Shown here: positions 47,966 to 62,750 of the stretch, piece after piece
How the letters are laid out: every line of letters begins with the position of its first letter
How positions within the stretch are numbered: position 1 is the stretch's first letter
Assembly (NCBI RefSeq): GCF_025371035.1
Contig: NZ_JANZXB010000012.1
Location: forward strand, 1-64,000
Reading direction: 5' to 3'
Source: Sphingomonas sp. LC-1
Lineage (GTDB): Bacteria > Pseudomonadota > Alphaproteobacteria > Sphingomonadales > Sphingomonadaceae
Length of the DNA stretch: 64,000 bases
Position numbers and translations under genes: made by a program
The notes under the pieces: model-generated
Database searches by the model: none
Told to the model about the DNA's origin: nothing
What the model saw: only the letters and a program-made list of their open reading frames with translations

Positions 47966-48838
47966 CTAGGCGATTGCTTCCGGCATGAAACCGGCTAGCC
48001 GGAGCGCGCCGTCGAGTGCATCGCCGAGAGGAACGCTGAGCCGCTCGACCGTGCGGGCGCGAAGCCATGGGCTGATGCGTGGCGCCAATCCGCCGACCAG
48101 TACGCATCGCGTCACGCCGCGCTCGAAGATCGTTTCGACGAAGCGCTCGATATGGCTGGCCGCTTCCTCGACGATCAACCGGGCGATCGGGTCGTTGGCC
48201 TCGGCATAGTCCATGACGAGCGGCGCGAAGCTGCCATAATCGCGCGGGGTCGCCCGATCCATCCAGGCGATCGCCTTGGCGGTGTCATGGTCGAAGCGTT
48301 CGGTGACCGCCGCGCTGAGCGGCGTCTTGTGGGTACGACCGTCGAGCGCGCGCAAGGCATGGCGCATCGCACTCAACCCCAGCGCCGCGGCACTTCCTTC
48401 GTCTGAGATCGGGAAGCCGTAGCCGCCGATGGTGAAATCCTGCCCGTCGATGCGCAGCTTGGCCGCGCTGCCCGTGCCGATGATCAGGATCGCGCCGTCC
48501 TGCCCCGCATGGGCACCCAGATTGGCGATCTGCGCATCGGTCGCGAACGCGACGGCCGCAAAGCCGAAGTCCAGTTCGGCCAGCGCCTCGCGGATGCCGA
48601 GCCGGCTGATCCCGGCAATGCCCATGCCCGCGCGGATGGTGCGGCGCTGCGTATCGGACAATCCGGCTTCGGACACCGCCTGGTCCGCCGTCTCCGTCAG
48701 CGTGCGGTAGAGCGGTTCGATCCCGATGCGGGCATTGGCAGGTCCTGAAAGACCATGCCCGATCACCGAACCCCGTTCGTCCACCAGCCGGGCCCGGCAG
48801 TGACTGCCGCCCGCATCGATCCCAAGATAATAGGTCAT
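47966..48838 (-). CDS. N-acetylglucosamine/glucosamine kinase, BadF/BadG type
   Basis: 290 aa, ASKHA fold. Phosphate-1 motif YYLGIDAGGSHCRARLVDE, adenosine and phosphate-2 parts ILIIGTGSAAKL and GGYGFPISDEGSAAALGL (the conserved DEGS found in GlcNAc kinases), and CVLVGGLAPRISPWL near the end. It would phosphorylate the free amino sugar released by the upstream GH84 enzyme to the 6-phosphate. ATG 48838 overlaps the D-lactate dehydrogenase stop by 4 bp. Glucosamine rather than GlcNAc as substrate cannot be excluded. Confidence 0.85.
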   Translation of the reverse strand: MTYYLGIDAGGSHCRARLVDERGSVIGHGLSGPANARIGIEPLYRTLTETADQAVSEAGLSDTQRRTIRAGMGIAGISRLGIREALAELDFGFAAVAFATDAQIANLGAHAGQDGAILIIGTGSAAKLRIDGQDFTIGGYGFPISDEGSAAALGLSAMRHALRALDGRTHKTPLSAAVTERFDHDTAKAIAWMDRATPRDYGSFAPLVMDYAEANDPIARLIVEEAASHIERFVETIFERGVTRCVLVGGLAPRISPWLRARTVERLSVPLGDALDGALRLAGFMPEAIA

Positions 48839-50547
48839 TGATGGTCTCCCTGGTCGGTGATGCCCCAGTTTCGGGCGCGAGGGGTCTGGCCGATGCCCGG
48901 ATTGAGCTGATTTCGCGGATCGATGCGGCGATAGAAATCCGCCAGTTGGGGCGGCGCGACATAGAGGTGGCCGACATTATGCTCGGCCGGATATTGGGCA
49001 CCGCGCGCGTCGAGCAGGGCCCAGAGCGCGTGTTCGAACGCGATGGGATCGTTGCCCTTTCGGATGATATAATCCTGATGGAAGACGTGGCAGAAGAAAT
49101 GGCCATAATAGAGCGTGTGGATCACCTGGTCGCCGAGCGCCGACGGCAACGCCTCGACCCAGGTTTCCGCATTGCGGGGAAGGGCGATGTCAAGCGCGAC
49201 GATGTCGGCAACCGCCTCTGTATGGACCGCCCGGTATCGCACCGCCGCGCCCGCCACCACGAAGCGATGGAGAAAGGCCTTGGCGCCGTCTTCCTTACCG
49301 CACGCCAGATGGTCGCCCTCATCATCGCCCGGAAACAGCCGAGCCAGCAAGGCGCGGGTCTCCGCGATCTGATCCCCCGAGACCTTCAGGATCAGGTGAT
49401 GCACGAAGCGGTCGCGGTAGCGCCGCATCCAGCCGGGCAGGTGATCGGGCATGAACCGCCCCGACCATTGCATCAAACGATCGCTCAAGCCCCGCGATAT
49501 GCGATCGGCGAACGCGTCGAACCGGGCCTTGGCCGCGAAGAGCGCCGGGAGCCGATCGGTGCCGAGCCGCTCAATCGCGAAGAACATGTCGCGCCCATAG
49601 CGATCCGCGATGTCGAAGGCGGTACGGTGAATATATTCGGCCGCGATCGGCAACCGGTCGAAATCGCGCAATATCGTTCTACGTAACTCGGCGAGCCGGT
49701 CGGGCGCATTGGTGCCGATATAGAAGGTGGCGCTATCCTCCTCCCGCACGAAGGTGTCGAGGCGTACCGCAAAGACGATCAGCTTTCCGGCGCTTCCCGA
49801 CGCCTCGAACAGGCAGCGGGGATCGGCGTTGAAGCGGGCGGGTATGTCGCTGTCGATCGCCCGGACATGCTCGGCATAGCTGTGGTCATGGGCCAAGCGA
49901 TCGGCGGCGGGGTCAATATCCGCCTCGGCGAAGTCCCCGGTATCGAGACGCGACAGAATCGTCTCGGGACCGTCGCCAAGTGCGATGCCCAAATGATTGA
50001 CCAGGGTCAGGCCGCCATCGGGCCCGACGGCGGCGAATAGCGCGAGTTGGGTATAGGCGGGGCCGCGCCGGATCAGCGATCCGCCCGAATTGTTGCACAC
50101 ACCGCCCACGACCGACGCGCCGAAACAGGACGATCCGATCACCGAATGCGGTTCGCGCCCATAGGGGCGCAGAGCCTTTTCAAGCTCATACAAGGTCGCG
50201 CCCGGCAGGCACACCACCTGCTCGCCATTTCGGATCACCCGCAGGTGCGACAGGCGGGTGGTACTGATGATAACGACGCCGCCGGGATAATCATCGCCAT
50301 CGGGTGTCGAGCCGCCGGTGAGCCCGGTGTTCGATGCCTGCATGATGATCGAGACATTGGCGGCGACGCAGGCCCTGACGACATGCCACAGTTCGACCAG
50401 ACTGCCCGGCTGCACCACCGCGATCGCCGGTCCGTTGCCGGTGCGATACCCCTTGCGGAACCGCGCCGTCGCGCGCGGCGTGGTAAGGAGGTGACGGCGG
50501 CCCACCGTGGCGCGGAGCGTTGCCAGCAGCGTCGCGGTGTCGGTCAT
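48835..50547 (-). CDS. dld: quinone-dependent D-lactate dehydrogenase
   Basis: 570 aa, matching E. coli Dld (571). It oxidises D-lactate to pyruvate with FAD and passes electrons to quinone at the inner membrane face. The N-terminal FAD domain contains IIMQASNTGLTGGSTPDG and GSSCFGASVVGGVCNNSGGSLIRRGPAYTQ. The C-terminal membrane-binding and cap parts include HTLYYGHFFCHVFHQDYIIRKG and AEHNVGHLYVAP. It lies between the GH84 gene (16 bp) and the sugar kinase gene (4-bp overlap). The MurQ reaction encoded 8 kb away releases D-lactate, which gives this enzyme an evident job here. Confidence 0.95.
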   Translation of the reverse strand: MTDTATLLATLRATVGRRHLLTTPRATARFRKGYRTGNGPAIAVVQPGSLVELWHVVRACVAANVSIIMQASNTGLTGGSTPDGDDYPGGVVIISTTRLSHLRVIRNGEQVVCLPGATLYELEKALRPYGREPHSVIGSSCFGASVVGGVCNNSGGSLIRRGPAYTQLALFAAVGPDGGLTLVNHLGIALGDGPETILSRLDTGDFAEADIDPAADRLAHDHSYAEHVRAIDSDIPARFNADPRCLFEASGSAGKLIVFAVRLDTFVREEDSATFYIGTNAPDRLAELRRTILRDFDRLPIAAEYIHRTAFDIADRYGRDMFFAIERLGTDRLPALFAAKARFDAFADRISRGLSDRLMQWSGRFMPDHLPGWMRRYRDRFVHHLILKVSGDQIAETRALLARLFPGDDEGDHLACGKEDGAKAFLHRFVVAGAAVRYRAVHTEAVADIVALDIALPRNAETWVEALPSALGDQVIHTLYYGHFFCHVFHQDYIIRKGNDPIAFEHALWALLDARGAQYPAEHNVGHLYVAPPQLADFYRRIDPRNQLNPGIGQTPRARNWGITDQGDHQ

Positions 50548-50563
50548 GGCCTTGGGGGCGGGG

Positions 50564-51667
50564 TCATTGGGTCTGAACCTCCTCGTCGGTCATCAGGTCC
50601 TTGCCGTCCAGCCAGACGATGATCTCGCGCGCCGCGGGGTGATCGATCGCGCTGTAGCGGGCACGGAGCCGATCCCCTCGCGGGCCGAGCCGATCATGGC
50701 CGACATCCTGCAACGCGGCGATATCCTGGCGCAGCATCCGGGCGAAGTCGTCGCCGAGAAGCCGCTCCGCCGCCTCGGCGAAAGCCGCGCCATAGCTATA
50801 ATCGTCGCCCCGGTCATATAGCATGGGCAGCGTCAGGGCGGGGATGCAGGTCAGATGCGCCTGGATCGCGGGATTGATGGCATGGCCGGTTACTCGTCCG
50901 GCGAGCCGCGCCGATCGCCCGGTGAGCCCGCGCAGATGCAGGAAGCGCGACATGCGGGCGCCGTCATTGACCGGATAATTGTCCCACAGGCAGACCGGCC
51001 GCCCCAGTTCCGCAGCCACCCGGTCGAGATGGGTGCCGCCGATCTCGGGCGAGCAAACCTCTTCGCCGGTCCAATAGACCTGCACCGCCGGGTCGAGCCC
51101 GCGCCCCAGATCGGCGAGATAATCGCACGGGCGTTCGCCGAAGACGAGGTCGAGCACCGGATCGTCGGAATAATAGGTCGGGCAGGTGAAGACGCGCGAC
51201 GCACGGGTCAGGCCGGCGCAGAAATTGACCACCTCCGCCTGGTTCCGCGCGAGGTCCGGCATGTCGCCGCGCAGGTCGTCGAACAGCACGGCGAGGTCGT
51301 CGATCCCGATCGCATCCAGATCGGCCAGCCTCCGCCTGAGATCGGCGCGGGCCTGATCGTCGAACGGGTGGGTCGATCCGACCGGCGTGATCGCGATTCC
51401 GAAACGCAGGCCCGCCGCGCGGCATTCGTCGGACAGGCGGGCCAGCATCCCGGTCTGTTCCCGGTCATGGCCGGTGCGCCAGTCGCGCCGCAGCGCCCGA
51501 TCTGCCTTGGGCCCATAATGATAAAAGGCGTAACCGGCCTGCCCGAGCGTCCTGACGACATGATCGCGTTCGTCCGGCGTCCAGATGCGACCGAACCGCC
51601 CCTCGATCAGGCCCAGGTCGGGGCATGGCGGGGCTGCTGCCGGAGACATGTCGATATGCGAAGTCAT
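50564..51667 (-). CDS. GH84-family beta-N-acetylglucosaminidase
   Basis: 367 aa. The N-terminal part matches the GH84 catalytic barrel: GLIEGRFGRIWTPDERDHVV..AFYHYGPKADRALRRDWR, with the double-Asp catalytic site in LAVLFDDLRGD (D130/D131), the pair used in substrate-assisted catalysis. No signal peptide is seen, so it is probably cytoplasmic, and the accessory domains of secreted GH84 enzymes are missing. It heads an operon with dld and a GlcNAc-type kinase. In this setting it could release GlcNAc from GlcNAc-anhydroMurNAc, the task of NagZ (GH3) elsewhere. ATG 51667 is used; ATG 51649 is possible. Confidence 0.85.
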   Translation of the reverse strand: MTSHIDMSPAAAPPCPDLGLIEGRFGRIWTPDERDHVVRTLGQAGYAFYHYGPKADRALRRDWRTGHDREQTGMLARLSDECRAAGLRFGIAITPVGSTHPFDDQARADLRRRLADLDAIGIDDLAVLFDDLRGDMPDLARNQAEVVNFCAGLTRASRVFTCPTYYSDDPVLDLVFGERPCDYLADLGRGLDPAVQVYWTGEEVCSPEIGGTHLDRVAAELGRPVCLWDNYPVNDGARMSRFLHLRGLTGRSARLAGRVTGHAINPAIQAHLTCIPALTLPMLYDRGDDYSYGAAFAEAAERLLGDDFARMLRQDIAALQDVGHDRLGPRGDRLRARYSAIDHPAAREIIVWLDGKDLMTDEEVQTQ

Positions 51668-51679
51668 GACGTAGTTTAG

Positions 51680-51719
51680 ATACCAGTTCGCCACTCTTCG
51701 CAAGTGGCATCCTATTGGT
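51680..51719. promoter_or_regulatory. candidate operator in the GH84/PP2C divergent promoter
   Basis: The 115-bp region between the two start codons has ATACCA (51680-51685), an inverted repeat GCCACT-CTTCGCA-AGTGGC (51690-51708) and ATTGGT (51714-51719). The ATACCA/TGGTAT-like half-sites resemble the direct repeats before the TonB receptor at 53735-53755. The GntR regulator at 59162 is a possible ligand. Confidence 0.35.
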
Positions 51720-51782
51720 TTGCATGAGCAGAGCAAAGTTGATAGCCTCCCATCGCATTCGAAATCGGATGGGGAGCATTTC

Positions 51783-52640
51783 ATGCTGAGGATCGACGTC
51801 GCGCTGTCCGATGGGCCGGGTCATGTGAATGAGGATGCGATCGGCCATTATGGCAATGCCGCCTGGGTGATCGATGGCGCAACCGGCGTCGGTCCGTCCG
51901 TGCTCGACGCGCCGAGCGATGCGGCATGGCTCGCGCAGACAGCGAACCGGCTGATCGCGGATGCCTTGGCCGAAGACCCGGCACGTCCCACCGTCGAAAT
52001 CCTTCGCACGGTCATGACGCGTTGTGCCGAGGCGTTGGGGCCGGTGCGATTGCGGACCGGGATCGACGCATGCGATCTCCCCTCGGCGGCCTTTGCCATG
52101 CTCCGCATCATCGGCGACATGGTCGAGATCACTTGCCTGGCCGATTGTCGTGTCGCGGCAGTCGATGACGCGGGTGCCGCCCGATTATTCGGTGCGTCGG
52201 ATCTGGATGCCATCGAGGCGCGGACGTTGGCTGCGGTCAAGGCGATCCATGACGAGGATTCGACGATCGACCCCGATGTCCTGAAGGCGCGGCTGATACC
52301 GGGATTGCGTGCCAATCGCTGCCTCAAGAATCGCGAGGGCGGCTATTGGGTGCTCGGTACCGAGCCTGCCGCTGCGGATCATGTGTGGCAGGCAACGCAT
52401 CCCCTGCAGCCCGGTCAGCGCTTCGCGATCGCCAGCGACGGGTTCCTGCGGCTCGTTGAATTGTTCGGCACTGCGACGCCCGCCGATCTTCTGGCGATCG
52501 CGATGCCGGAAGAGGGGCGCGCATGGCTGGCGCGATTGCGTGACATCGAGCGCGAGCCGGATTCGCTCCATCGTTACACCCGCGTGAAGCGGCACGACGA
52601 TGCCAGCCTGATCGTCTGCGCCTGGGACGCGTCGAACTGA
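51783..52640 (+). CDS. PP2C-like protein phosphatase
   Basis: 285 aa. PPM/PP2C metal-site motifs are present: NEDA (16-19), VIDGATG (D31/G32), AIASDGFLRL and the late RHDDASLIVC. This is close to a minimal PP2C; there is no membrane helix or sensor domain. It normally dephosphorylates Ser/Thr in proteins with Mn/Mg. ATG 51783 has GGGGAG 7 nt upstream. Its stop shares a base with the anmK start (TGATG), so the two are co-translated. Why a PP2C should be coupled to an amino-sugar kinase is unclear; removal of a phosphate from a sugar or a regulator are options. Confidence 0.75.
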   Translation: MLRIDVALSDGPGHVNEDAIGHYGNAAWVIDGATGVGPSVLDAPSDAAWLAQTANRLIADALAEDPARPTVEILRTVMTRCAEALGPVRLRTGIDACDLPSAAFAMLRIIGDMVEITCLADCRVAAVDDAGAARLFGASDLDAIEARTLAAVKAIHDEDSTIDPDVLKARLIPGLRANRCLKNREGGYWVLGTEPAAADHVWQATHPLQPGQRFAIASDGFLRLVELFGTATPADLLAIAMPEEGRAWLARLRDIEREPDSLHRYTRVKRHDDASLIVCAWDASN

Positions 52641-53737
52641 TGCTGGTGATGGGCTATATGAGCGGAACGTCGCTCGACGGCGTCGATGTCGCGTTGATCG
52701 AGACCGATGGCGAGCGGGTCGGGGGATTCGGCCCTGCCGCGATGATCCCGTTTGCGGCCGCCGATCGCGCCGTGGTCGAGCGTGCGACGCAGGATGCGCT
52801 GGCGTGGAACGGCCATGGGGTTGCACCACCTTCCTTCGAAGACGCGGCCGCCGTGATCCACCGGTCGCATGTCGCGGCGGGTGAGCGGGTTATCAAAGAG
52901 GCCGGGCGTCGCCCCGACCTGATCGGCTTTCACGGCCAGACGGTGCTTCATCGCCCTGAGCGTCGGCTTTCGGTCCAGATCGGCGATCCGCAGCGGCTGG
53001 CCGATGCCTTGAATGTGCCGGTCGTCGCGCAGATGCGGCAGGACGATCTGCAGGCTGGCGGGCAGGGGGCTCCGCTGGTGCCGGCCTATCACGCCGCGCT
53101 GGCCGAGCATCTTGGGCTGGAGAGGCCTGTCGCATTCCTCAATATCGGCGGCGTCGCGAACCTGACCTGGATCGGTTCGGACGGAACGCTGATCGCGTTC
53201 GATACGGGTCCCGGCAATGGATTGATCGACCAGGTCGTCCAAGCGCGCGGAGCGGGTCGCTATGACGATGGTGGTCGGTTCGCCGCTGCGGGCGCCGTCG
53301 ATACGCGTGTGCTGGCCGAGCTGCTGGCCCATGACTATTTTTGTGGGACGGGGGCGAAGTCGCTCGATCGCTACGATTTCCCGTTGGACTGGGCGGATGC
53401 CTGCTCGCTTGAAGACGCCTCGGCGACGCTGACCGCTTTCACGGCGGAAGCGGTGGCGTTGGCGGCGCGCAGTTTGCCGGCATCGCCCGAGCTTTGGGTC
53501 ATATGCGGCGGTGGCGGACATAATCCGGTTTTGATGGCGGCGTTGCGCGATCGGTTGGGACCGTGCCGGACGGCGGACGAAATCGGCCTGCGTAGCGACT
53601 TCGTCGAGGCCGAGGCAATGGCATTCTTGGCGGCGCGGAGCGCACTTGGCCTGCCGCTGACCTTCCCCGGCACGACGGGAGTTGCCGAACCGCTGACGGG
53701 CGGCTGGACATGGCAACCGACGACAATCAAACACTAA
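52640..53737 (+). CDS. anmK: anhydro-N-acetylmuramic acid kinase
   Basis: 365 aa. It converts 1,6-anhydroMurNAc plus ATP and water to MurNAc-6-phosphate in the cytoplasm. Signatures: GYMSGTSLDGVDVAL at the N-terminus, IGFHGQTVLHRP, VAFLNIGGVANLTWI, AFDTGPGNGLIDQ and ICGGGGHNPVLM. The length is typical for AnmK (about 370). Its product is the substrate of MurQ, encoded 4.5 kb downstream on the same strand. It follows the PP2C gene with TGATG overlap. Confidence 0.96.
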   Translation: MLVMGYMSGTSLDGVDVALIETDGERVGGFGPAAMIPFAAADRAVVERATQDALAWNGHGVAPPSFEDAAAVIHRSHVAAGERVIKEAGRRPDLIGFHGQTVLHRPERRLSVQIGDPQRLADALNVPVVAQMRQDDLQAGGQGAPLVPAYHAALAEHLGLERPVAFLNIGGVANLTWIGSDGTLIAFDTGPGNGLIDQVVQARGAGRYDDGGRFAAAGAVDTRVLAELLAHDYFCGTGAKSLDRYDFPLDWADACSLEDASATLTAFTAEAVALAARSLPASPELWVICGGGGHNPVLMAALRDRLGPCRTADEIGLRSDFVEAEAMAFLAARSALGLPLTFPGTTGVAEPLTGGWTWQPTTIKH

Positions 53738-53755
53738 TACCAATATATAATACCA
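53735..53755. promoter_or_regulatory. direct repeat TAATACCA before the TonB receptor
   Basis: TAATACCA at 53735-53742 (overlapping the anmK stop) and again at 53748-53755, separated by ATATA, period 13. It is A/T-rich in a G/C-rich region and lies about 115 bp upstream of the receptor ATG. A GntR or other regulator site is plausible. Confidence 0.45.
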
Positions 53756-53869
53756 CATCTTTACAAGTTCGAGACAGGTATGCATAGTTCGGCTTGTTCC
53801 CGTGCCCCGTCGAGTCCCGTGCTGGCGTGTCGACGGGACCGGATTCGGGCTTATGGGAGGGACTCCATC

Positions 53870-56605
53870 ATGGTGACGTCGTACCGACATACCGCAGCCG
53901 CAGCAGCCTTGGCCGTTGCCCTTGTGCAGATGCCGAGCATCGCGCTCGCCCAGACCAGTCCGGTGACGGAGGCGCAGGGGGAACCCGCGGCGGGCGGCGA
54001 CATCGTGGTGACCGGCACGCGCATCCCGATTCCCGGTCTTACCTCCAGCAGCCCGGTCGCCTCGACCAGCGAAGAGCAGATCAAGCTGCAATCCGCACTG
54101 ACCATCGAGGATTTCTCGACCAAGATTCCGCAACTGTCGGGCGGCGTCCGCCAGGGCTCGCAGGGTAGCGACGCGTTCGGCGCGCAGGTTCTGGAGCTGC
54201 GCAACTTCGGCCAGAGCCGGTCGCTGGTTCTGATCGACGGCACCCGCGCGGCGCCGTTCAGCTTCCGCAACTCGGTCGATGTCAACGCGATCCCCGCCTC
54301 GCTTATCAGGCGCGTCGATGTGCTGACCGGCGGCGCGGCCGCCGTTTACGGTGCGGACGCGGTCGCGGGCGTCGTGAACTTCATCCTCAATGACGAGTAT
54401 AAGGGCATTCGCGGCACCGCGACCAGCCGACTGTCGGTCAGGGGTGGCGCGCAATATGGCGGTTCGCTGATGCTGGGCACCGGCATCGGTGATCGTGGCA
54501 ACCTCGTGATCGCGGCGGACTATACCCAGCGTGACGGCGTTCGGGCGGGACAGCGCGACTGGGCCGCAACCCCCAATCAGACCATTCCCAGCATCGGCGG
54601 CGTCTTCACCGATGTCGCCAGCGGTCGGCGCTTCGGCTTTACCGACGACGGCGCCTTTACGACCACGCCCTCGGCCACCTCGAACCTCTCGGCCAGCTAT
54701 CCGCTGATCTCTCCGCTCAAGAGGATCAACGTGGCGGCGCTCTACAAATATGAAATTACGCCGCAGGTCGAAATCTATGGCCGCGCGATGTACACCAACG
54801 CCCGGACCGAGGAGACCGGCACGCCGGGCGCGGCCCCGGCCTCGGTCAACCGCACGGTGGCGATCAGCGCGACCAATCCGTTCCTGACCGACGCGATCCG
54901 CAACCAGCTGACATTCGTGAACGGCTCGGCACAGGTGAATGTGTCGCGCTCGCTCGCCGAGCTGGGGCTGATCACCTATGCGACCGAGCGGAACACGTTG
55001 CAGTTCCAGTCCGGCCTGCGCGGCCCGTTGACCGATGCGGTGCGGTGGAACGTCTATGCGCAATATGGTCGCTCGACCGAATCCTCGTTGATCTCGGGCG
55101 ATGGCGTGGTCAACAACGCGGCTGGCGCGAACAATTTCGCGTCGATCGTCAACACCGTGAACATCTTCGGCCCACGGCAACCGAGGCTTGCCGCCGCGCT
55201 GGGCAGCACGATCGACGGCTTCAATCGCAAGCGTGACCAGTTCGTAACCGCCGCGACGATCAGCGGCAGCCTGGCCGACCTGTTCTCCCTGCCGGCGGGC
55301 CCGATCGGCTTTGCGGCGGGCGTCGAATATCGCCGGGAGACTGCGAGCATCAACCAGGACAGCGCGCTGCTGACCGGCAACACCTACCGCCAAGGCGTGC
55401 AGGGCGCATATAAGGGGGCGTTCGACGTCGCCGAGCTTTATGGCGAAGTGCTCGTCCCGCTGATCCACGACACGCCGTTGATCCGCAAGCTGGACATTGG
55501 CGGTGCGTATCGCCTGTCGGACTACAACCTGTTCGGCACGCACGGCACCTGGAAGGTCGAAGGCAATTGGGAGGTCGATCGCAACCTGCGGCTGCGCGGT
55601 ACCTATCAGCGTGTGCTGCGGACCCCCAATTTCGGCGAGTTCGCCGCCTCCACCTCATCCCTGCCGCTCAGCAATCTCGTCACCGTCGATCGGCTGAAGC
55701 CTCGCTATGGGGGCGATCCGTGCGTGCTGGGCACCGGCAACGCGGCGCAGTGTGCGCGCCTGGGCGCACCGGCCGTCGGCTCGGCCAATTCCAACGCCGC
55801 GAGCTACCTGACCGGCAATTATTATTATGGCGGCAATCCCGACATCAAGCCGGAGACAGGCTATACGACGACGGCGGGCGCGGTGTTTACCCCGACCTTC
55901 CTGCCCGGCCTGAACGTGACGTTCGACTATTATAATCTCGACCTGCGCGGGGCCGTCGGCGTGATCCAGCCGATCGCGGCGATCACGAGCTGCTACATCA
56001 CCAATCCGACGGCGGGCAATCCGCTGTGCGCACTCGTCACCCGCAACGCGAATGGCAGCTTCGCCGACGCGTTCGTCAACAACCAGAATCTGGGCCGCCT
56101 GCTGCAGCGCGGCTTCGACATTTCGGCGGCCTATACGCTGCGCGCGGACTGGTTGCCGGGCAGGGGCCTGCGCGCCAGCTATCAGGGCAATATCGTCACC
56201 TCCTATCTGATCCAGGCGAACCCGACCGTGTCCGCGGTGCAGTGCAAGGGCACGTTCGGCGCGACCTGCTCCAGCGACGGCACGACGCTGGTACAGCCCG
56301 CCTATCGGCATACCGCCGGGATCGGCTGGCTGCTCGACAAGGGGGTGATCCAGTTCGACTGGCAGCGCATCGGCAAGGTCCGATCGAGCACGGTCGGATC
56401 GACGGAGACGATCAAGGCACAGGACACCTTCGACCTGTCGGCATCCTATGATTTCACCGACACCGTCACGATGAGCGCGGGCGTCTACAATCTGCTCGAC
56501 CGCAACCCGCCGCGCGTATCGACGGGGGGCGTGTTCAACACCTTCCCCGACACCTACGACATCCTGGGACGGACGATCGGCTTCTCCCTGACCGCGCATC
56601 TCTGA
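53870..56605 (+). CDS. TonB-dependent receptor of the amino-sugar locus
   Basis: 911 aa. Signal peptide to about residue 28 (MPSIALAQ), TonB box GGDIVVTGTR, plug with FGAQVLELRNFGQSRSLVLIDGTR and VDVLTGGAAAVYGADAVAGVVNFIL, then the barrel ending in IGFSLTAHL. The GGAAAVYGADAVAGVVNF form is common in receptors for sugars and oligosaccharides in sphingomonads and Caulobacter (family knowledge). ATG 53870 has GGGAGG 9 nt upstream. It sits between anmK and the SSS symporter/murQ genes, so muropeptide sugars or chitin-type oligosaccharides are the likely ligands (inference). Confidence 0.93.
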   Translation: MVTSYRHTAAAAALAVALVQMPSIALAQTSPVTEAQGEPAAGGDIVVTGTRIPIPGLTSSSPVASTSEEQIKLQSALTIEDFSTKIPQLSGGVRQGSQGSDAFGAQVLELRNFGQSRSLVLIDGTRAAPFSFRNSVDVNAIPASLIRRVDVLTGGAAAVYGADAVAGVVNFILNDEYKGIRGTATSRLSVRGGAQYGGSLMLGTGIGDRGNLVIAADYTQRDGVRAGQRDWAATPNQTIPSIGGVFTDVASGRRFGFTDDGAFTTTPSATSNLSASYPLISPLKRINVAALYKYEITPQVEIYGRAMYTNARTEETGTPGAAPASVNRTVAISATNPFLTDAIRNQLTFVNGSAQVNVSRSLAELGLITYATERNTLQFQSGLRGPLTDAVRWNVYAQYGRSTESSLISGDGVVNNAAGANNFASIVNTVNIFGPRQPRLAAALGSTIDGFNRKRDQFVTAATISGSLADLFSLPAGPIGFAAGVEYRRETASINQDSALLTGNTYRQGVQGAYKGAFDVAELYGEVLVPLIHDTPLIRKLDIGGAYRLSDYNLFGTHGTWKVEGNWEVDRNLRLRGTYQRVLRTPNFGEFAASTSSLPLSNLVTVDRLKPRYGGDPCVLGTGNAAQCARLGAPAVGSANSNAASYLTGNYYYGGNPDIKPETGYTTTAGAVFTPTFLPGLNVTFDYYNLDLRGAVGVIQPIAAITSCYITNPTAGNPLCALVTRNANGSFADAFVNNQNLGRLLQRGFDISAAYTLRADWLPGRGLRASYQGNIVTSYLIQANPTVSAVQCKGTFGATCSSDGTTLVQPAYRHTAGIGWLLDKGVIQFDWQRIGKVRSSTVGSTETIKAQDTFDLSASYDFTDTVTMSAGVYNLLDRNPPRVSTGGVFNTFPDTYDILGRTIGFSLTAHL

Positions 56606-56623
56606 TCACTCAGCTTAGCCATA

Positions 56624-56662
56624 GCGCCCGGCCCGATCCGAGGGGCGGGCGCGATCGTTTTT
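56624..56662 (+). terminator. rho-independent terminator after the TonB receptor
   Basis: GCGCCCGGCCC (56624-56634) pairs with GGGGCGGGCGC (56642-56652), 10 of 11 pairs, loop GATCCGA, followed by a T5 run at 56658-56662. It lies 19 bp after the receptor stop, so the symporter-murQ-gntR genes need their own promoter or readthrough. Confidence 0.75.
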
Positions 56663-56704
56663 CGCCCGTGGACGTCCGGTCCGAAGCAATCGGAGCATGT
56701 TTCG

Positions 56705-58261
56705 ATGATGTTGCCCTTCTCTCTGGCCGACTGGCTCGTCATCGCGGCCTATCTGCTGCTGCTGGTCGCGGGCGGATGGATATTCACGCCCCGCAAGACC
56801 GAGTCGGCGCGGGAGTATTTTCTGGCGGGGGGCAATGTTCCCGTTTGGCTCGCCGCGCTTTCGGTCCTGTCCGCAACCCAGTCGGCGGCGACCTTCCTTG
56901 GCGGGCCGGACTATGGCTATCGTGGCGACCTGACCTATCTCAGCGGCAATATCGGCGGGCTGATCGGTGCGGTCTTCGTCGCCCATGTCCTGATCCCGCG
57001 CTTCTATGCGATCCGTGCCACCACTGCCTATGAGTTGCTGACGCTGCGTTTCAGCGAGCGGGCCACGCGCTGGGCGGGGGGCATGTTCCTGGTGGGCCGC
57101 GTCTTTGCCGGTGGTGCACGGGTCTATCTCGCCGCGATCGCGCTTGCGATGGTCGTGACGGGCAGCGTCGGTGCGCAGGGGATCATGATCGCGGCTGCGG
57201 CACTGGTCGTCGCCAGCGTGGCGTTCACGTTTGTGGGCGGCCTGAAATCGGTTCTGTGGAACGACCTGATCCAGTTCATCGTCTATATCGGGTCGGCGGT
57301 GGCGGTGCTGGTGTTCCTGCGCCTGTCGATCCCGGCCTCCAACGCCCAGATCCTGGACGCGCTGGCCCATACGCCGGAGGGTGTCGACAAGCTGCGCCTG
57401 TTCGACTTTTCGCTCGATCTGTCGCGACCCTTTTCGATGCTGGCGATCGTGACAGGCCTCGCGCTGCTCTACATCGCGAATGCGGGCATGGATCAGGACA
57501 CCACGCAGCGCCTGTTGTCGTGCAAGGACGCGAAGACGGGCGCGCGTAGCCTTTACCTTTCCGTCCTGGCGACGGTGCCGACGGTGGGCATGTTCATCGT
57601 GATCGGTCTGCTGCTCTACATTTTCTACGACCGACCAGACCTGATGGGCGGGTCCGGAGCCGTCGCGGCCAGCCAATTCGGTGGCGAGAAGATCAGCATT
57701 TTCATGCATTATATCCTCACCCAATTGCCGGGCGGCCTGCGAGGCCTGGTGACGATCGGCATTTGCGCGGCGGCGGTGGCGACGACCAATTCGGCCCTCA
57801 ACGCGATGTCGTCCGTCCTGGTGCAGGATTTCTACCGTCCCTGGCGTGATCGGCGTGGGCCGGTCGACGAGCATCATTTCGTCCAGGCGGGGCGCGCGGG
57901 CATGGGCGTTATCGGCTTTGCGATGTTCGTGATGGCCGTCGCGTCCTTCTATTGGCAGCGTTACAGCTCGATGGGTCTGCTGGAGTTCGCGCTTCAGGTC
58001 ATGGTGTTCAGCTATGCCGGCCTGCTGGGTGTCTATTTCACCGCGCTGTTCACCACACGAGGGACGACCGGATCGGCGATCGCCGCGCTGCTGATCGGCT
58101 TTGTCACGATTGTGTTGCTGCAACCTGCCATTGCCAGGGCGATCGGTCTGCCCCTGGCCCTTAACGGGTTGTCCTTCCCGTTTCAGCTTTGTCTGGGCAC
58201 GGCCGTCGCGTTTCTGGTCTGCGCCGCACCCGCTGGCACCGCTCCGCACCGAGGTCGTTGA
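56705..58261 (+). CDS. sodium:solute symporter (SSS family)
   Basis: 518 aa with about 13-14 membrane helices. The N-terminus WLVIAAYLLLLVAGGWIFTPRKTESAREYFLAGGNVPVWLAALSVLSATQSAATFLG shows the SSS pattern of TM1 and the unwound TM1/TM2 segment; VLWNDLIQFIVYIGSAVAVL and NAGMDQDTTQRLLSCKDAKTGARS are typical central motifs. It would import a sugar or amino sugar with Na+ across the inner membrane. It is followed by murQ after 1 bp, so (anhydro)MurNAc or a related disaccharide is the inferred cargo, in the place of AmpG or a PTS. GGAG precedes the ATG by 8-9 nt. Confidence 0.92.
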   Translation: MMLPFSLADWLVIAAYLLLLVAGGWIFTPRKTESAREYFLAGGNVPVWLAALSVLSATQSAATFLGGPDYGYRGDLTYLSGNIGGLIGAVFVAHVLIPRFYAIRATTAYELLTLRFSERATRWAGGMFLVGRVFAGGARVYLAAIALAMVVTGSVGAQGIMIAAAALVVASVAFTFVGGLKSVLWNDLIQFIVYIGSAVAVLVFLRLSIPASNAQILDALAHTPEGVDKLRLFDFSLDLSRPFSMLAIVTGLALLYIANAGMDQDTTQRLLSCKDAKTGARSLYLSVLATVPTVGMFIVIGLLLYIFYDRPDLMGGSGAVAASQFGGEKISIFMHYILTQLPGGLRGLVTIGICAAAVATTNSALNAMSSVLVQDFYRPWRDRRGPVDEHHFVQAGRAGMGVIGFAMFVMAVASFYWQRYSSMGLLEFALQVMVFSYAGLLGVYFTALFTTRGTTGSAIAALLIGFVTIVLLQPAIARAIGLPLALNGLSFPFQLCLGTAVAFLVCAAPAGTAPHRGR

Positions 58262-58262
58262 T

Positions 58263-59159
58263 ATGATGAACACCGAAGCGCTCGATCCCCGTTTCCTCGA
58301 TCTCGATCTCTGGCCGACCCAGTTCGCCGTCGAGGCGATGTTGGAGGGGCAGATGGCGGCCATCGCGGCCCTTCAGTCCCAGGTCGCCGCCATCGCGCAC
58401 GCTGCCGAAGCCGCCGCCGCGCGATTGGGGCAGGACGGGCGGCTGGTCTTCGTGGGCGCAGGCACATCGGGGCGCCTCGCGGTCCAGGACGGGACCGAGC
58501 TTCACCCCACCTTCGGCTGGCCGATGGAGCGCATGATCTTTCTGATGGCGGGCGGCATGGGCGCACTGACCGAAGCGCGCGAAGGGGCGGAGGACGATGT
58601 CGACGCCGCGCGCAGGGACATCGACGCCTGCGGCATCACGCCGTCCGATGTCGTGATCGGCGTCGCCGCCAGCGGGCGGACGCCCTACACGGTCGCGGTG
58701 ATCGAGCGAGCACGTGCGGTCGGTGCGCTGACGATCGGCATCACCAACAATCCGGGAATGCCGCTGACCGAGCGCGCCGAGCATGTCGTGGTCGCCGATA
58801 CCGGCAGCGAGGTTCTGGCGGGCTCGACCCGGATGAAGGCCGGAACGGCGCAAAAGGCGGTGCTGAACCTGTTGTCGACTGCGGTGATGCTCCGGCTCGG
58901 TCTCGTCTATCGCGGGCGGATGGTGGCCATGCGCGTCTCCAATGCGAAGCTCTTGCAACGCGGTCGGCGCATGGTTCAGGATATTGCCGGAGTGGATGCC
59001 GAGGTGGCGACACGCGCGCTCGAACGGGCGGACAACGACATTCGACTGGGCATCATCGTCGCCAAGGGACTCCCCGTCGAGGAGGCTGCGGCGCTGCTCG
59101 ACCGCCATCGCGGCAGCCTGCGCGGTGTCATGCGGGCGCTCGGCGAACGGGAGGCGTAA
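58263..59159 (+). CDS. murQ: N-acetylmuramic acid 6-phosphate etherase
   Basis: 298 aa, SIS-domain lyase. It cleaves the lactyl ether of MurNAc-6-P to give GlcNAc-6-P and D-lactate. Signatures: NTEALDPRFLDLDLWPT at the N-terminus, LVFVGAGTSGRLAVQDGTELHPTFGW (with the catalytic Glu region), IGITNNPGMPL and VLAGSTRMKAGTAQKAVLNLLSTAVM. ATG 58263 has GAGG 8 nt upstream; the sequence further upstream in the same frame overlaps the symporter gene and is not MurQ-like. Gaps to its neighbours are 1 and 2 bp, so the symporter, murQ and the regulator form one operon. Confidence 0.96.
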   Translation: MMNTEALDPRFLDLDLWPTQFAVEAMLEGQMAAIAALQSQVAAIAHAAEAAAARLGQDGRLVFVGAGTSGRLAVQDGTELHPTFGWPMERMIFLMAGGMGALTEAREGAEDDVDAARRDIDACGITPSDVVIGVAASGRTPYTVAVIERARAVGALTIGITNNPGMPLTERAEHVVVADTGSEVLAGSTRMKAGTAQKAVLNLLSTAVMLRLGLVYRGRMVAMRVSNAKLLQRGRRMVQDIAGVDAEVATRALERADNDIRLGIIVAKGLPVEEAAALLDRHRGSLRGVMRALGEREA

Positions 59160-59161
59160 CG

Positions 59162-59890
59162 GTGCGCGATATAGCCTGGACGCGAAGCGACGAAGCGACG
59201 CCGCTATACATGCAACTGGCCCAAAGCCTGCGCGAGCACATCAATGGCGGCGGCATCGATCCCGGCAGCGCTCTGCCCTCGGAACGCGAACTCAGTGAAA
59301 TGGCGGGCCTGTCGCGGGTGACGGTCCGCAAGGGCCTCAAGCAGTTGATCGACGAAGGGGTGCTCATCAGCAAACATGGCTCGGGCACCTTCGTCGCGCG
59401 GCAGATCGAAACGGCGGGGGCGAAGCTCACCAGTTTCAGCGACGACACCCGGTCGCGCGGACAGGATCCGGGCGTCGTTTGGATATACAAATCCTATGCG
59501 TTGCCGACCGAGGAGGAAGCCGCCGCGCTGGAAGTGGCGCCCGATGTCCGCGTCGCGCGGCTTGGGCGTGTCCGTCTGGCGGGCAACGAGCCGCTGGCGA
59601 TCGAACATGCGGTGATCCCGGCCATTTTCATGCCCGATCTCGATGCGCTGGGCGACTCGCTCTATCAGGCGCTGGACGTGCATGGTTTCCGACCGACATC
59701 GGGGACGCAGCGTATCCGCGCCTCGCTCGCGACCGAGACGGAAGCCGGAATCCTGAGCGTGCGACAGAATTCCGAGGTGTTGCGGATCGAACGTTGCACG
59801 CGGATCCCCGACGGCCGCGTCGTCGAATTCACCCGTTCGGTCTATCGCGGCGATCGCTATGAGTTCGTGACGGATCTGAACGTCGTGTGA
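59162..59890 (+). CDS. GntR/HutC family regulator with UTRA domain
   Basis: 242 aa. Winged helix at about 10-75 (PLYMQLAQSLREHINGGGIDPGSALPSERELSEMAGLSRVTVRKGLKQLIDEGVLISKHGSGTFVA), then a UTRA ligand-binding domain (about 95-240). This architecture is that of NagR/MngR-type repressors that bind sugar phosphates. The GTG start is preceded by GGGAGG. As the last gene of the symporter-murQ operon it is the best candidate to control the whole amino-sugar locus, possibly in response to GlcNAc-6-P or MurNAc-6-P. Confidence 0.9.
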   Translation: MRDIAWTRSDEATPLYMQLAQSLREHINGGGIDPGSALPSERELSEMAGLSRVTVRKGLKQLIDEGVLISKHGSGTFVARQIETAGAKLTSFSDDTRSRGQDPGVVWIYKSYALPTEEEAAALEVAPDVRVARLGRVRLAGNEPLAIEHAVIPAIFMPDLDALGDSLYQALDVHGFRPTSGTQRIRASLATETEAGILSVRQNSEVLRIERCTRIPDGRVVEFTRSVYRGDRYEFVTDLNVV

Positions 59891-60266: not shown

Positions 60267-62750
60267 TCACGCTGGCTGTGCCGCCAGGACGGACGCCGGC
60301 AAATGGCCCCGCCCTGCGGCAAGTGGCGGTTGAACGGACGAGAGCGCGGCATCTAGGGCGGCGGCGAGCGCCAGCGCGGCATTGCCCCGCACCATGGTTT
60401 CATGGTCTCCGGCGATTTCCCGAACCGTGATCCGGCCTTTCAGAACCGCGTTCCAGCCCGAGTCGCCATGCCGTGTCGTCGGCTGCATCAGCAGGACGTT
60501 TCCGCAATAGGGGGCGGCGACATAGGAGCGCGTCGCCTGCTCGACCCGCTGGCTGAAGCTGGCATCATCGGGCCGGATGCCGACCCGCCGTCGCAGCAGT
60601 TCGGCCATCCGCCGTCTCATCCCGCCCGCCCCAGGCCGATCCGCATCCAGCAGGGCGAGCAGGCCGACCTCGTGGCCCGCTTCCGTCAATTGCCGTGCCA
60701 GTTCATAGGCGACGATTCCCCAGCGGCACCACCCGCCCAGATAATAAGGGCCGTTCGGTTGCGCTGCCAGCAGATGACGCCGCAGCCGGGCCGCCACCGC
60801 TAAGATCGATAGCGGTCCGCCGCCCAAGGCATCTTCGTCAACGGGATCGATGTTGAGCGCGAAGACGGGCTGGTCGGCGGACAGGCCCCGCAGCATCGTC
60901 CGCATCAATGGTCCGGTGTCGAGCCAAAAGAGTGGCGGTCGATGGCCGTCAGGGTTGAGCAGCATCGCAGCCCCGTCCATCGGCTGGTTCCCCGCTGCGA
61001 TGCGTGCCGCCATCGCCGACAGGGTGGAATGGCGCATCAACTCGATCAGCGGCAAGCGCACGCCAAAGACCGTCTCGATCCGGCGGCTGAGCCGCACCGT
61101 CATCAGCGAATAGCCGCCCAGATCGAAGAAATCATCGTCATCGGCGACGCGCGCCAGGCCCAGCAGGTCGCACCAGATCGCGCTTAATCGTCGATCGATG
61201 GCGTCGACGGCCTCGACCGGCACCGATGCCGGTGCATCGGTGGAAGGATCGGGCAGGGCGGCGCGATCGATCTTTCCATTGGGGGTCAGTGGCATCATGG
61301 CCAGGAAGACGATCCGATCCGGGATCATATAGCCCGGCAGATGGCTCGCGAGGAAGGACTTGATCTCGCGGGCATGAAGCCCTTGTCGGCGCGGCACGAC
61401 ATAGCCGACCAGAAGCGGCTCGCCCGAGGCGTCGGTCCATAATCGCACCGCCCCCCATGCCGCGTCGGGATGGAGGGCCAGTGCCGCCTCGACATCGCCC
61501 AGTTCGATCCGGAAGCCGCGCACCTTTACCTGATCGTCGATCCGCCCCAGGCAATAGAGTGCGCCGCGCTCGTCGAAGCGCCCGAGATCGCCGGTGCGAT
61601 AGACCCGCGTCCCGTCCGCCATCTGGACGAAACGCTCGGCGGTCAGGTCGGGGCGGTTGCGATAGCCGCGTGCGACGCCGGTCCCGCCGATCACGATCTC
61701 GCCCACTGTGCCGGTGGGGACGGGGTTCAACGCCGCATCGGTGACCTGCACGGCGATGCCCGCCATCGGCCAGCCGATAGGTATGGCGTCATGGCTGGGC
61801 GTCACGTGGCATGCGGTCGACCAGACGGTCGTCTCGGTCGGTCCATAGATGTTCCAGAGTTCGTCGCATCGGTGCAGGAGTCGGTCGGCCATTGGCCGCG
61901 TCAGCACCTCGCCACCCGCCAATATCCGCAATCCCGGCTGGCCGCTCCAGCCATATTCCAGCAGGGATCGCCAGGTAGACGGGGTTGCTTGGACCAGATC
62001 GGGGCGATAGGCATCGAAAGCCGCCGCGAGCCGCGCGGGGTCGGCCGCTTCCTCCAACTCGATCAGCGCCAGAGACCCGCCGACGAAGAAGGGCAGGAAC
62101 AGGTCCGGCACCGAAAGATCGAAGCTGAGCCGGGTGATCCCCATGATCCGTTCGCCGGTGCGAAACCCCGGGATGGCCGCCATCGTCTTCAGAAGGGCCA
62201 CCAGCGAGCCATGCTCGATCTCCACGCCTTTGGGGCGACCGGTCGAACCGGAGGTGAAGATGACATAGGCCAGCGTGTCGGGCGTGACCGGCGGCGTAGG
62301 GAGGCAGAGCACGGGATCACGGTCATCCTCGGCGATCATCATCGGCACGCCCAGATCGCCCAGCATCGCGGCATAGCGTTGATTGGCGACGATCAGCGCC
62401 GGGCGGGCATCCTCGACGATATGGGCGAGCCGGGTCGGGGGTGTCGTGGCGTCGATCGGAAGATAGGCCGCCCCGACCTTGAGCACGGCAAGCAGCCAGG
62501 CGGGCAGATCGACGTCGCGCGACAGACAAAGGCCGATCAGGGGATGGTCCTCGGTCAGGGCATGAGCCAGCCGGGCTGCCAGTCGCTCGACCCGTTCCGC
62601 GAGTTCGCGATAGCTATATCGTCTTCCTTGCGCCTCGACAGCGGTTGCATCGGGTTGGCACCGGGCATGATGCTGGAATGTTTCGGGAAGCGAGCGCCAT
62701 GCCCGCGACGCGACATGCGTGACCGTCTCTTGCTGACGCAGCACCTTCAT
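60267..62750 (-). CDS. NRPS-like protein: adenylation, carrier and thioesterase domains
   Basis: 827 aa, no condensation domain. Adenylation domain about 20-510: A3 YVIFTSGSTGRPKGV, A5 NIYGPTETTVW, A7 YRTGDLGRF, A8 GRIDDQVKVRGFRIELGDVE, A10 PLTPNGKIDR. An Asp in SFDLSVPD at the usual position 235 implies an alpha-amino acid substrate. Carrier domain about 525-600 with the phosphopantetheine Ser in FFDLGGYSL. Thioesterase about 615-810, with GGWCRWG where GxSxG is expected (Cys nucleophile) and the His in AGDHETM. Such A-T-TE proteins activate one amino acid and release or transfer it. It is divergent from a glycosyltransferase gene, so decoration of a glycan or lipid is possible. Confidence 0.9.
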   Translation of the reverse strand: MKVLRQQETVTHVASRAWRSLPETFQHHARCQPDATAVEAQGRRYSYRELAERVERLAARLAHALTEDHPLIGLCLSRDVDLPAWLLAVLKVGAAYLPIDATTPPTRLAHIVEDARPALIVANQRYAAMLGDLGVPMMIAEDDRDPVLCLPTPPVTPDTLAYVIFTSGSTGRPKGVEIEHGSLVALLKTMAAIPGFRTGERIMGITRLSFDLSVPDLFLPFFVGGSLALIELEEAADPARLAAAFDAYRPDLVQATPSTWRSLLEYGWSGQPGLRILAGGEVLTRPMADRLLHRCDELWNIYGPTETTVWSTACHVTPSHDAIPIGWPMAGIAVQVTDAALNPVPTGTVGEIVIGGTGVARGYRNRPDLTAERFVQMADGTRVYRTGDLGRFDERGALYCLGRIDDQVKVRGFRIELGDVEAALALHPDAAWGAVRLWTDASGEPLLVGYVVPRRQGLHAREIKSFLASHLPGYMIPDRIVFLAMMPLTPNGKIDRAALPDPSTDAPASVPVEAVDAIDRRLSAIWCDLLGLARVADDDDFFDLGGYSLMTVRLSRRIETVFGVRLPLIELMRHSTLSAMAARIAAGNQPMDGAAMLLNPDGHRPPLFWLDTGPLMRTMLRGLSADQPVFALNIDPVDEDALGGGPLSILAVAARLRRHLLAAQPNGPYYLGGWCRWGIVAYELARQLTEAGHEVGLLALLDADRPGAGGMRRRMAELLRRRVGIRPDDASFSQRVEQATRSYVAAPYCGNVLLMQPTTRHGDSGWNAVLKGRITVREIAGDHETMVRGNAALALAAALDAALSSVQPPLAAGRGHLPASVLAAQPA

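Follow-up and report, generated by a model that had tools for sequence, protein, structure and literature searches.

A candidate locus for the use of peptidoglycan amino sugars in Sphingomonas sp. LC-1, beside a set of standard recycling genes

Described systems and the Sphingomonas locus

In soil and water, fragments of peptidoglycan probably serve as a nutrient, and to our knowledge few routes for their use by free-living Gram-negative bacteria have been described. The nearest described system among the literature found is murT-murK-murQ (with ampG) of Tannerella forsythia, where the genes for a transporter of the sodium symporter superfamily, a sugar kinase and MurQ form one operon, for external N-acetylmuramic acid (MurNAc) (PMC5790795, PMC7670621). 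The subject of this study is a comparable locus of nine genes at positions 47966 to 59890 of a 64,000-nucleotide stretch of DNA from Sphingomonas sp. LC-1, the whole of which we call the window. It too brings a transporter of this kind, a sugar kinase and MurQ together; it differs in adding a TonB receptor, a GH84 glycoside hydrolase, AnmK, a D-lactate dehydrogenase (Dld), a PP2C-fold protein and a GntR regulator, in the presence of AmgK- and MurU-like genes in the same genome, and in its kinase, whose best match in the PDB is a probable NagK and not a MurNAc kinase. The symporter is likened to MurT by membership of the sodium:solute symporter (SSS) family and by adjacency to murQ, not as an established orthologue. 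At a probability of roughly three in four, we read this as a locus for the utilisation of peptidoglycan amino sugars, in addition to standard recycling.

Other described systems share parts of this arrangement. The AnmK-MurQ recycling route of E. coli leads from anhydroMurNAc to N-acetylglucosamine (GlcNAc) 6-phosphate and D-lactate (PMC5371407); the window locus differs from it in the adjoining TonB-receptor and SSS genes, the GH84 and the dedicated Dld. Caulobacter crescentus is alike in its GntR-linked TonB-receptor clusters with NagA and NagB and in a recycling set of AmpG, NagZ, AnmK, MupP, AmgK and MurU, the like of which occur in the window's genome, whereas it is without MurQ and its clusters use a phosphotransferase system, not an SSS (PMC13046382). 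Proteobacterial NagQ regulons combine a GntR/HutC regulator and tandem TGGTATT sites with nagA and nagB targets (PMC4494728, PMC5343134), whereas sites of the window's type precede operons with murQ, anmK, GH84, SSS and Dld. The GH84 O-GlcNAcases OgOGA, NagJ and BT_4395 have the domain family and the LFDD motif in common with the window GH84, which differs in its length of about 360 residues, its lack of an evident signal peptide and its linkage to murQ. For mat bacteria, the presence of MurQ together with GlcNAc genes has led to a prediction of MurNAc use (PMC5507952). No paper on a sphingomonad version of this locus, or on GH84 in muropeptide breakdown, was among the top-ranked open-access matches, a search that left subscription literature mostly uncovered.

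An earlier note on the window had claimed this nine-gene set; all nine open frames were located where it placed them, on the implied strands, and Pfam and NCBIfam profile searches of the translated open reading frames, with curated cut-offs, support the assignment of all but the PP2C-like protein. The reverse strand carries a BadF/BadG-type kinase for GlcNAc and possibly MurNAc (47966..48838; PF01869, 105 bits, cut-off 31.5; NagK_SO3507 model, 234 bits, below its cut-off of 370), Dld with its membrane-binding domain (48835..50547; PRK11183, 860 bits, cut-off 391; PF09330) and a single-domain GH84/NAGidase protein (50564..51649; PF07555, 167 bits, cut-off 25). On the forward strand are the PP2C/PPM-fold protein (51783..52640), assigned from its structure model and from profile matches of orthologues, the anhydro-N-acetylmuramic acid kinase AnmK (52640..53737; NF007141, 468 bits, cut-off 352), the TonB-dependent outer-membrane receptor (about 53870..56605; PF00593 and PF07715), the SSS symporter (56705..58261; PF00474, 87 bits), which adjoins murQ, the MurNAc-6-phosphate etherase MurQ (58263..59159; NF003915, 340 bits, cut-off 168; TIGR00274, 255 bits, below its cut-off of 302) and a GntR/UTRA regulator, probably NagQ-like (59162..59890; PF00392 and PF07702), whose top NCBIfam match is HutC at 110 bits, below cut-off. 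Dld, AnmK and MurQ (with NF003915) thus pass curated cut-offs. The likely starts of four genes are not those of the longest frames: GH84 at 51649 (or 51667), the PP2C-like protein at 51783, MurQ at 58263, and the receptor at the ATG at 53870, from which its N-terminus resembles a signal peptide. Because the same set recurs in relatives, it is beyond chance.

The identities of the genes, the conservation of the cluster, the operator-like repeats common to both blocks and the separateness of the recycling genes are observed; we infer what is taken up and how, what induces the locus, and whatever part the PP2C-fold protein plays. The TonB receptor and the SSS symporter would import external GlcNAc-(anhydro)MurNAc or (anhydro)MurNAc, and a cytoplasmic GH84 would remove GlcNAc. 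The BadF-type kinase would yield GlcNAc-6-phosphate, and perhaps MurNAc-6-phosphate too; AnmK would convert anhydroMurNAc to MurNAc-6-phosphate, MurQ would split this into GlcNAc-6-phosphate and D-lactate, and Dld would pass electrons from D-lactate to quinone. The route to fructose-6-phosphate would be completed by NagA and NagB-II, whose genes lie on a separate contig in this genome and between the blocks in many relatives. A NagQ-like GntR regulator would control both blocks. The genome has in addition a recycling set of the AmpG/AnmK/AmgK/MurU type, apart from the locus.

Conservation of the two gene blocks

The earlier note had named beforehand, as a test, the co-occurrence in sphingomonads of the GH84-Dld-kinase block and the block running from the PP2C gene to gntR, and relatives do carry both blocks adjacent, many of them with nagA and nagB in between; the comparison does not include the loci L147 and L148. 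In a sample of 119 genomes of the family, MurQ (above 230 bits) was found in 14, GH84 (at least 47% identity) in 12 and both in five, and in all five the two genes lie inside an 11-kb span. The one-sided Fisher p for co-presence over the 119 genomes is 0.005, a value that ignores relatedness.

The 13 other murQ regions form a set whose probe does not select for GH84. One of them (L041) holds the complete nine genes, L042 holds eight (without GH84), L043 eight (without Dld) and L040 six (without anmK and the symporter, and with a receptor match of just 27%); all four carry nagA and nagB between the blocks. In L044 five of the genes are accompanied by NagX, a GlcD-type enzyme, nagB and nagA. Most of the set is missing from the remaining eight regions (L045-L052): the kinase is present in six (L045, L048-L052), nagA and nagB in four (L045, L048, L049, L052), AmpG-like genes in four (L045, L048, L050, L052) and a similar GntR in L048, and neither kinase nor nag genes were found in the L046 and L047 regions. 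The evidence for the AmpG-like genes varies, with L048 over the cut-off of the AmpG family, L050 at 321 against 350 bits, and L045, L052, L060 and L152 recognised by 25-29% identity. As a separate observation, among these six murQ regions an SSS gene occurs only in L060. In L044 a NagX-like membrane protein (L044:10725-11837; NagX 130 bits, below cut-off) follows gntR, where no SSS match was found; NCBIfam describes NagX as a transmembrane glucosamine N-acetyltransferase.

A scan of named genomes for GH84, from which the best 80 of 582 confirmed stretches were kept, gave 12 loci with murQ in the stretch, labelled Novosphingobium, Sphingomonas, Aurantiacibacter and Sphingopyxis. Four of them (L056, L058, L059, L064) carry all nine window genes plus nagB and nagA. 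Novosphingobium clariflavum is among the carriers of the complete locus. L062 has eight, the PP2C gene being missing (no such frame was found in L062), and L066 also has eight; its stretch ends inside murQ, so that gntR would lie beyond it. Seven of the genes are present in L060 and L077, five in L057, L061 and L063, and four in L067. The nagB-nagA pair accompanies half of the 12 (L056, L058, L059, L062, L064, L077) and is absent from L066. The symporter-bearing loci among the best 80 number 12, all with murQ and 11 also with the receptor. The symporter of L066 is nearest to the window's, and the nearest of the named loci compared is that of Sphingomonas sp. GM_Shp_1 (SSS 91%).

Many of these symporter- and murQ-bearing GH84 loci also hold one or other of two types of dehydrogenase. 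In L044 and L077 the Dld slot is occupied by a GlcD-type FAD enzyme (top match TIGR00387, 331 and 304 bits, cut-off 567.9), which we infer to act on D-lactate; Dld also carries the FAD_binding_4 domain, so the two are different subfamilies and not unrelated proteins. The AnmKs of the same two loci share 55% and 53% of their residues with the housekeeping AnmK, against 41% and 43% with the AnmK of the window locus. Different parts in the same slots argue that selection acts on the removal of D-lactate and the phosphorylation of anhydroMurNAc.

Further genes were seen around some of these loci. In L066 the GH84-kinase pair lies near a peptidase S13 (D-Ala-D-Ala carboxypeptidase), a LysR gene, an SDF symporter, DUF1611 and a penicillin amidase, a neighbourhood that suggests a cluster for the use of peptidoglycan peptides. 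L065 and L067 carry frames similar to this neighbourhood (two frames of L067 were scanned). L065 is labelled Arthrobacter sp. TPD3018; its GH84 and kinase are 64-68% identical to the window's and its frames are Sphingomonas-like, and the label may be wrong.

Candidate operators, transport and enzymes

NagQ, a GntR/HutC regulator of GlcNAc genes, is reported to bind direct TGGTATT repeats (PMC4494728), and TGGTATT-like direct repeats occur in the window at the divergent GH84/PP2C promoter and before the TonB receptor. The first is a NagQ-box-type, operator-like repeat, AGTGGCATCCTATTGGTTTGCA (51703..51724), with 10/14 matches to TGGTATT-N4-TGGTATT. The second (53736..53755, reverse strand) consists of two perfect TGGTATT half-sites at a spacing of 6, not 4, and is the only pair in the window with at least 12/14 matches at spacings 3, 4, 5 and 6. 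In relatives, 18 loci of 13 to 21 kb hold 31 spacing-4 pairs with at least 11/14 matches, many at the two shared promoters and some elsewhere. For comparison, 30 first-order Markov copies of the window gave on average about 0.37 such pairs per 64 kb, a figure that applies to the window's base composition; the expectation differs for loci of other composition. L060, L066 and L067 have no such pair. Repeats of this type also precede the kinase in L043 and the anmK-kinase pair in L077.

With matrices trained on other loci alone, from either the divergent or the receptor sites, 51703-51724 ranks first in the 64-kb window over both strands (scores of 22.8 against 8.9 for the runner-up, and 12.8 against 10.2), and the window's receptor site ranks third, via an overlapping stretch; likeness among orthologous promoters is expected anyway. 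When the divergent and receptor site sets are ranked with each other's matrices, 10/10 and 7/7 fall in the top three, which is not independent evidence because the training sites were chosen by the repeat itself. A plain palindrome scan of the promoters found nothing in common. A DasR/YvoA-type palindrome (TGGTNTANACCA, up to 2 mismatches) gave 17 matches in the window against 6.5 expected, two of them inside locus genes (52120, 54786); since neither locus promoter holds a match, the direct repeat was preferred.

By sequence, the nearest solved relative of the symporter is the sialic acid symporter SiaT (5nv9, E 2.6e-31), in which Ser60 and Thr63 contact the carboxylate and Arg135 forms a salt bridge (PMC5931594). 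The residues in the columns of SiaT Thr58, Ser60 and Thr63 are Thr, Ser and Thr; the Ser60 and Thr63 equivalents are invariant in 19/19 SSS rows and that of Thr58 is kept in 18/19, counts that include L058/L150 (probably one record) and the near copies L064/L151. Other SSS members may share Ser/Thr at these positions. Among PDB relatives of the kinase the best is 1zc6 (probable NagK), with 8zo3 (a MurNAc/GlcNAc kinase) also found; the enzyme could serve GlcNAc, MurNAc or both. Determinants of MurK are described in PMC10465942.

The window GH84 aligns to OgOGA (2xsa), its best solved relative, through the LFDD motif, over 281 residues and at 118 bits. The paired Asp residues of this motif, which are catalytic, match those of OgOGA and are invariant in the GH84 alignment. 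A plain hydropathy scan found no strongly hydrophobic stretch at the N-terminus, and the protein is probably a cytosolic beta-N-acetylglucosaminidase. On a GH84 tree of 85 rows, 17 of them murQ-linked, linkage to murQ changes 4 times, against a mean of 15.9 for shuffled labels, and 0/500 shuffles are as low. The linked proteins are not strictly monophyletic (of the starred sets shown, the largest combines 15 linked proteins with 1 unlinked), and relatedness is one contributor to the result. The neighbours of 64 of the unlinked GH84 genes form no cluster that most groups have in common. Marinobacter loci make up most of several larger clusters, and inspection by eye, with no family scan, recognised none of the clusters as a peptidoglycan gene. 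The largely murQ-linked group of signal-less GH84s looks like one unusual part of the locus. A second, distant GH84 is present in the window's genome (G000:C34:128848-129765; 32% identity, long frame).

The PP2C-fold protein tied to murQ looks like another. At E<=0.001 neither Pfam nor NCBIfam has a family that matches it, and PP2C_2 is matched by 5/6 sequences (the window protein and five orthologues) at E<=1. Its structure model has a pLDDT (predicted local distance difference test) score of 85, and the best PDB matches by Foldseek are PstP and other PP2Cs (against 1txo, PstP: E 8.4e-11, probability 1.00, template modelling scores 0.54 and 0.63). The motifs N-x-D, DG, SDG and DD are invariant in seven sequences; these may correspond to the PP2C metal ligands, and the phosphate-binding Arg that usually precedes the first motif seems absent. 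Close forms (above 100 bits) occur in 8/396 order-level genomes, with murQ within 10 kb in 8/8, a count in which L150 probably duplicates the record of L058, the two contigs being equal in length, and L151 is similar to L064. Among the eight are L153, a rearranged locus from a different family, and L152, which holds an AmpG-like gene, and two further close forms occur in the family sample (G112, G046). Among 12 weaker matches across the order (below 80 bits), no murQ was found in the eight surroundings examined, those in G159, G307, G344 and G408 being left out. The protein is absent from L062, L044, L077 and the short loci, and is therefore not essential to the pathway.

Recycling genes and rival readings

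The window's genome (G000) encodes a second AnmK on contig C1, 46% identical to that of the locus, an AmpG over its cut-off and a NagZ-like GH3 slightly below its own (200.6 bits, cut-off 207). AmgK and MurU are the top NCBIfam matches, both below cut-off, of genes adjoining addB. The presence of these genes elsewhere means that recycling genes are separate from the locus. A phosphoglycolate-phosphatase-like gene (174 bits, cut-off 180) is divergent from glmU; because the MupP and GlmU locus numbers of C. crescentus are consecutive (CCNA_02390 and 02389; PMC13046382), it is a candidate MupP. The nagB and nagA genes lie on another contig beside a GntR gene, so the locus is incomplete by itself, and its earlier description as complete-looking did not hold. 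That import proceeds instead of AmpG, as was also claimed, is true at most of this locus, in a genome that also has AmpG, the second AnmK, the NagZ-like GH3, the AmgK- and MurU-like genes and the MupP candidate. The presence of MurQ together with AmgK-MurU-like genes departs from the pattern of one or the other that is reported chiefly in beta- and gammaproteobacteria (PMC5371407).

That the locus serves to catabolise peptidoglycan sugars taken up by way of the TonB receptor and an SSS symporter, as the earlier note proposed, fits the gene logic (AnmK or kinase, MurQ and Dld, with nagA and nagB inside the clusters of many relatives), the conserved blocks and the common operator-like repeat. 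Several observations weigh against it. The remaining 68 of the best 80 GH84 loci comprise 67 without locus genes and L065 with the kinase alone; GH84 alone is therefore no marker of the pathway, and the absence of partner genes is firm for half of the 68, since 34 have about 10 kb on both sides. L042, L152 and L153 hold much of the set without GH84, and L057, L060, L061, L063 and L067 have MurQ and the symporter with no AnmK in the stretch. MurQ is patchy in the family (14/119). At the column of SiaT Arg135 the symporter has no aligned Arg, the invariant Args lying 3 before and 4 after it. The window itself has no spacing-4 repeat with at least 11/14 matches, and its receptor site has a spacing of 6.

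The patchiness suits an accessory nutrient locus, and so counts against the idea, which we consider unlikely, that the locus mainly recovers the cell's own leaked turnover products and not foreign cell walls. The anhydro sugars on which AnmK acts are the usual products of Gram-negative self-turnover (PMC7670621, PMC5371407), and recycling genes are at hand in the genome as partners; however, AmpG, the second AnmK and the AmgK/MurU-like genes would already serve own-wall recycling, MurQ plus Dld is a burning route, and a TonB receptor suggests capture from outside. Less probable still is a locus for chitin or GlcNAc oligomers that acquired murQ and anmK, in which GH84 would cut chito-oligomers and the kinase and NagAB would finish the route. 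GH84, the GlcNAc-type kinase, nagA, nagB and the NagQ-type regulator are indeed GlcNAc genes, but the substrates of MurQ and AnmK are MurNAc-6-phosphate and anhydroMurNAc, murQ is found in every symporter-bearing locus among the best 80 of the GH84 scan and the receptor in 11 of the 12, and one of the two dehydrogenase kinds is present in many of them.

We give somewhat less than an even chance to a variant of peptidoglycan-sugar utilisation, compatible with it, in which the SSS imports free MurNAc or anhydroMurNAc only and GH84 acts elsewhere, for example on disaccharide imported by AmpG. In T. forsythia MurT, of the sodium-symporter family, carries MurNAc and AmpG the disaccharides (PMC5790795, PMC7670621); AmpG is present in the window's genome, and the symporter occurs in L042 and L153 in the absence of GH84. 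Against this variant, the short loci L057, L061 and L063 have GH84 next to receptor and symporter genes but no AnmK, a point of small weight because GH84 was the query.

Utilisation as proposed here would give the locus a candidate outer-membrane receptor and sodium symporter for cell-wall sugars, and a candidate cytosolic GH84 in place of, or beside, NagZ; the genome offers a case of coexisting MurQ and AmgK-MurU-like genes. It is a speculative and rather doubtful extension that the MurQ burning route and AmgK/MurU wall rebuilding compete in one cell, with the PP2C-fold protein controlling the fork, on MurNAc-6-phosphate or on the phosphorylation of pathway proteins, and with GH84 as a second, non-GH3 muropeptide disaccharidase. 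The notion of the PP2C-fold protein as a stand-in for a missing MupP is weakened by the phosphoglycolate-phosphatase-like gene beside glmU.

Two further features of the window were noted. A 989-amino-acid antisense open frame (52574-55543) lies opposite anmK and the receptor gene; it is probably a by-product of base composition and is not counted as a gene. Adjoining the locus, on the opposite strand, is a gene for a protein like a non-ribosomal peptide synthetase (60267-62750), in which adenylation, carrier and thioesterase domains each occur once.

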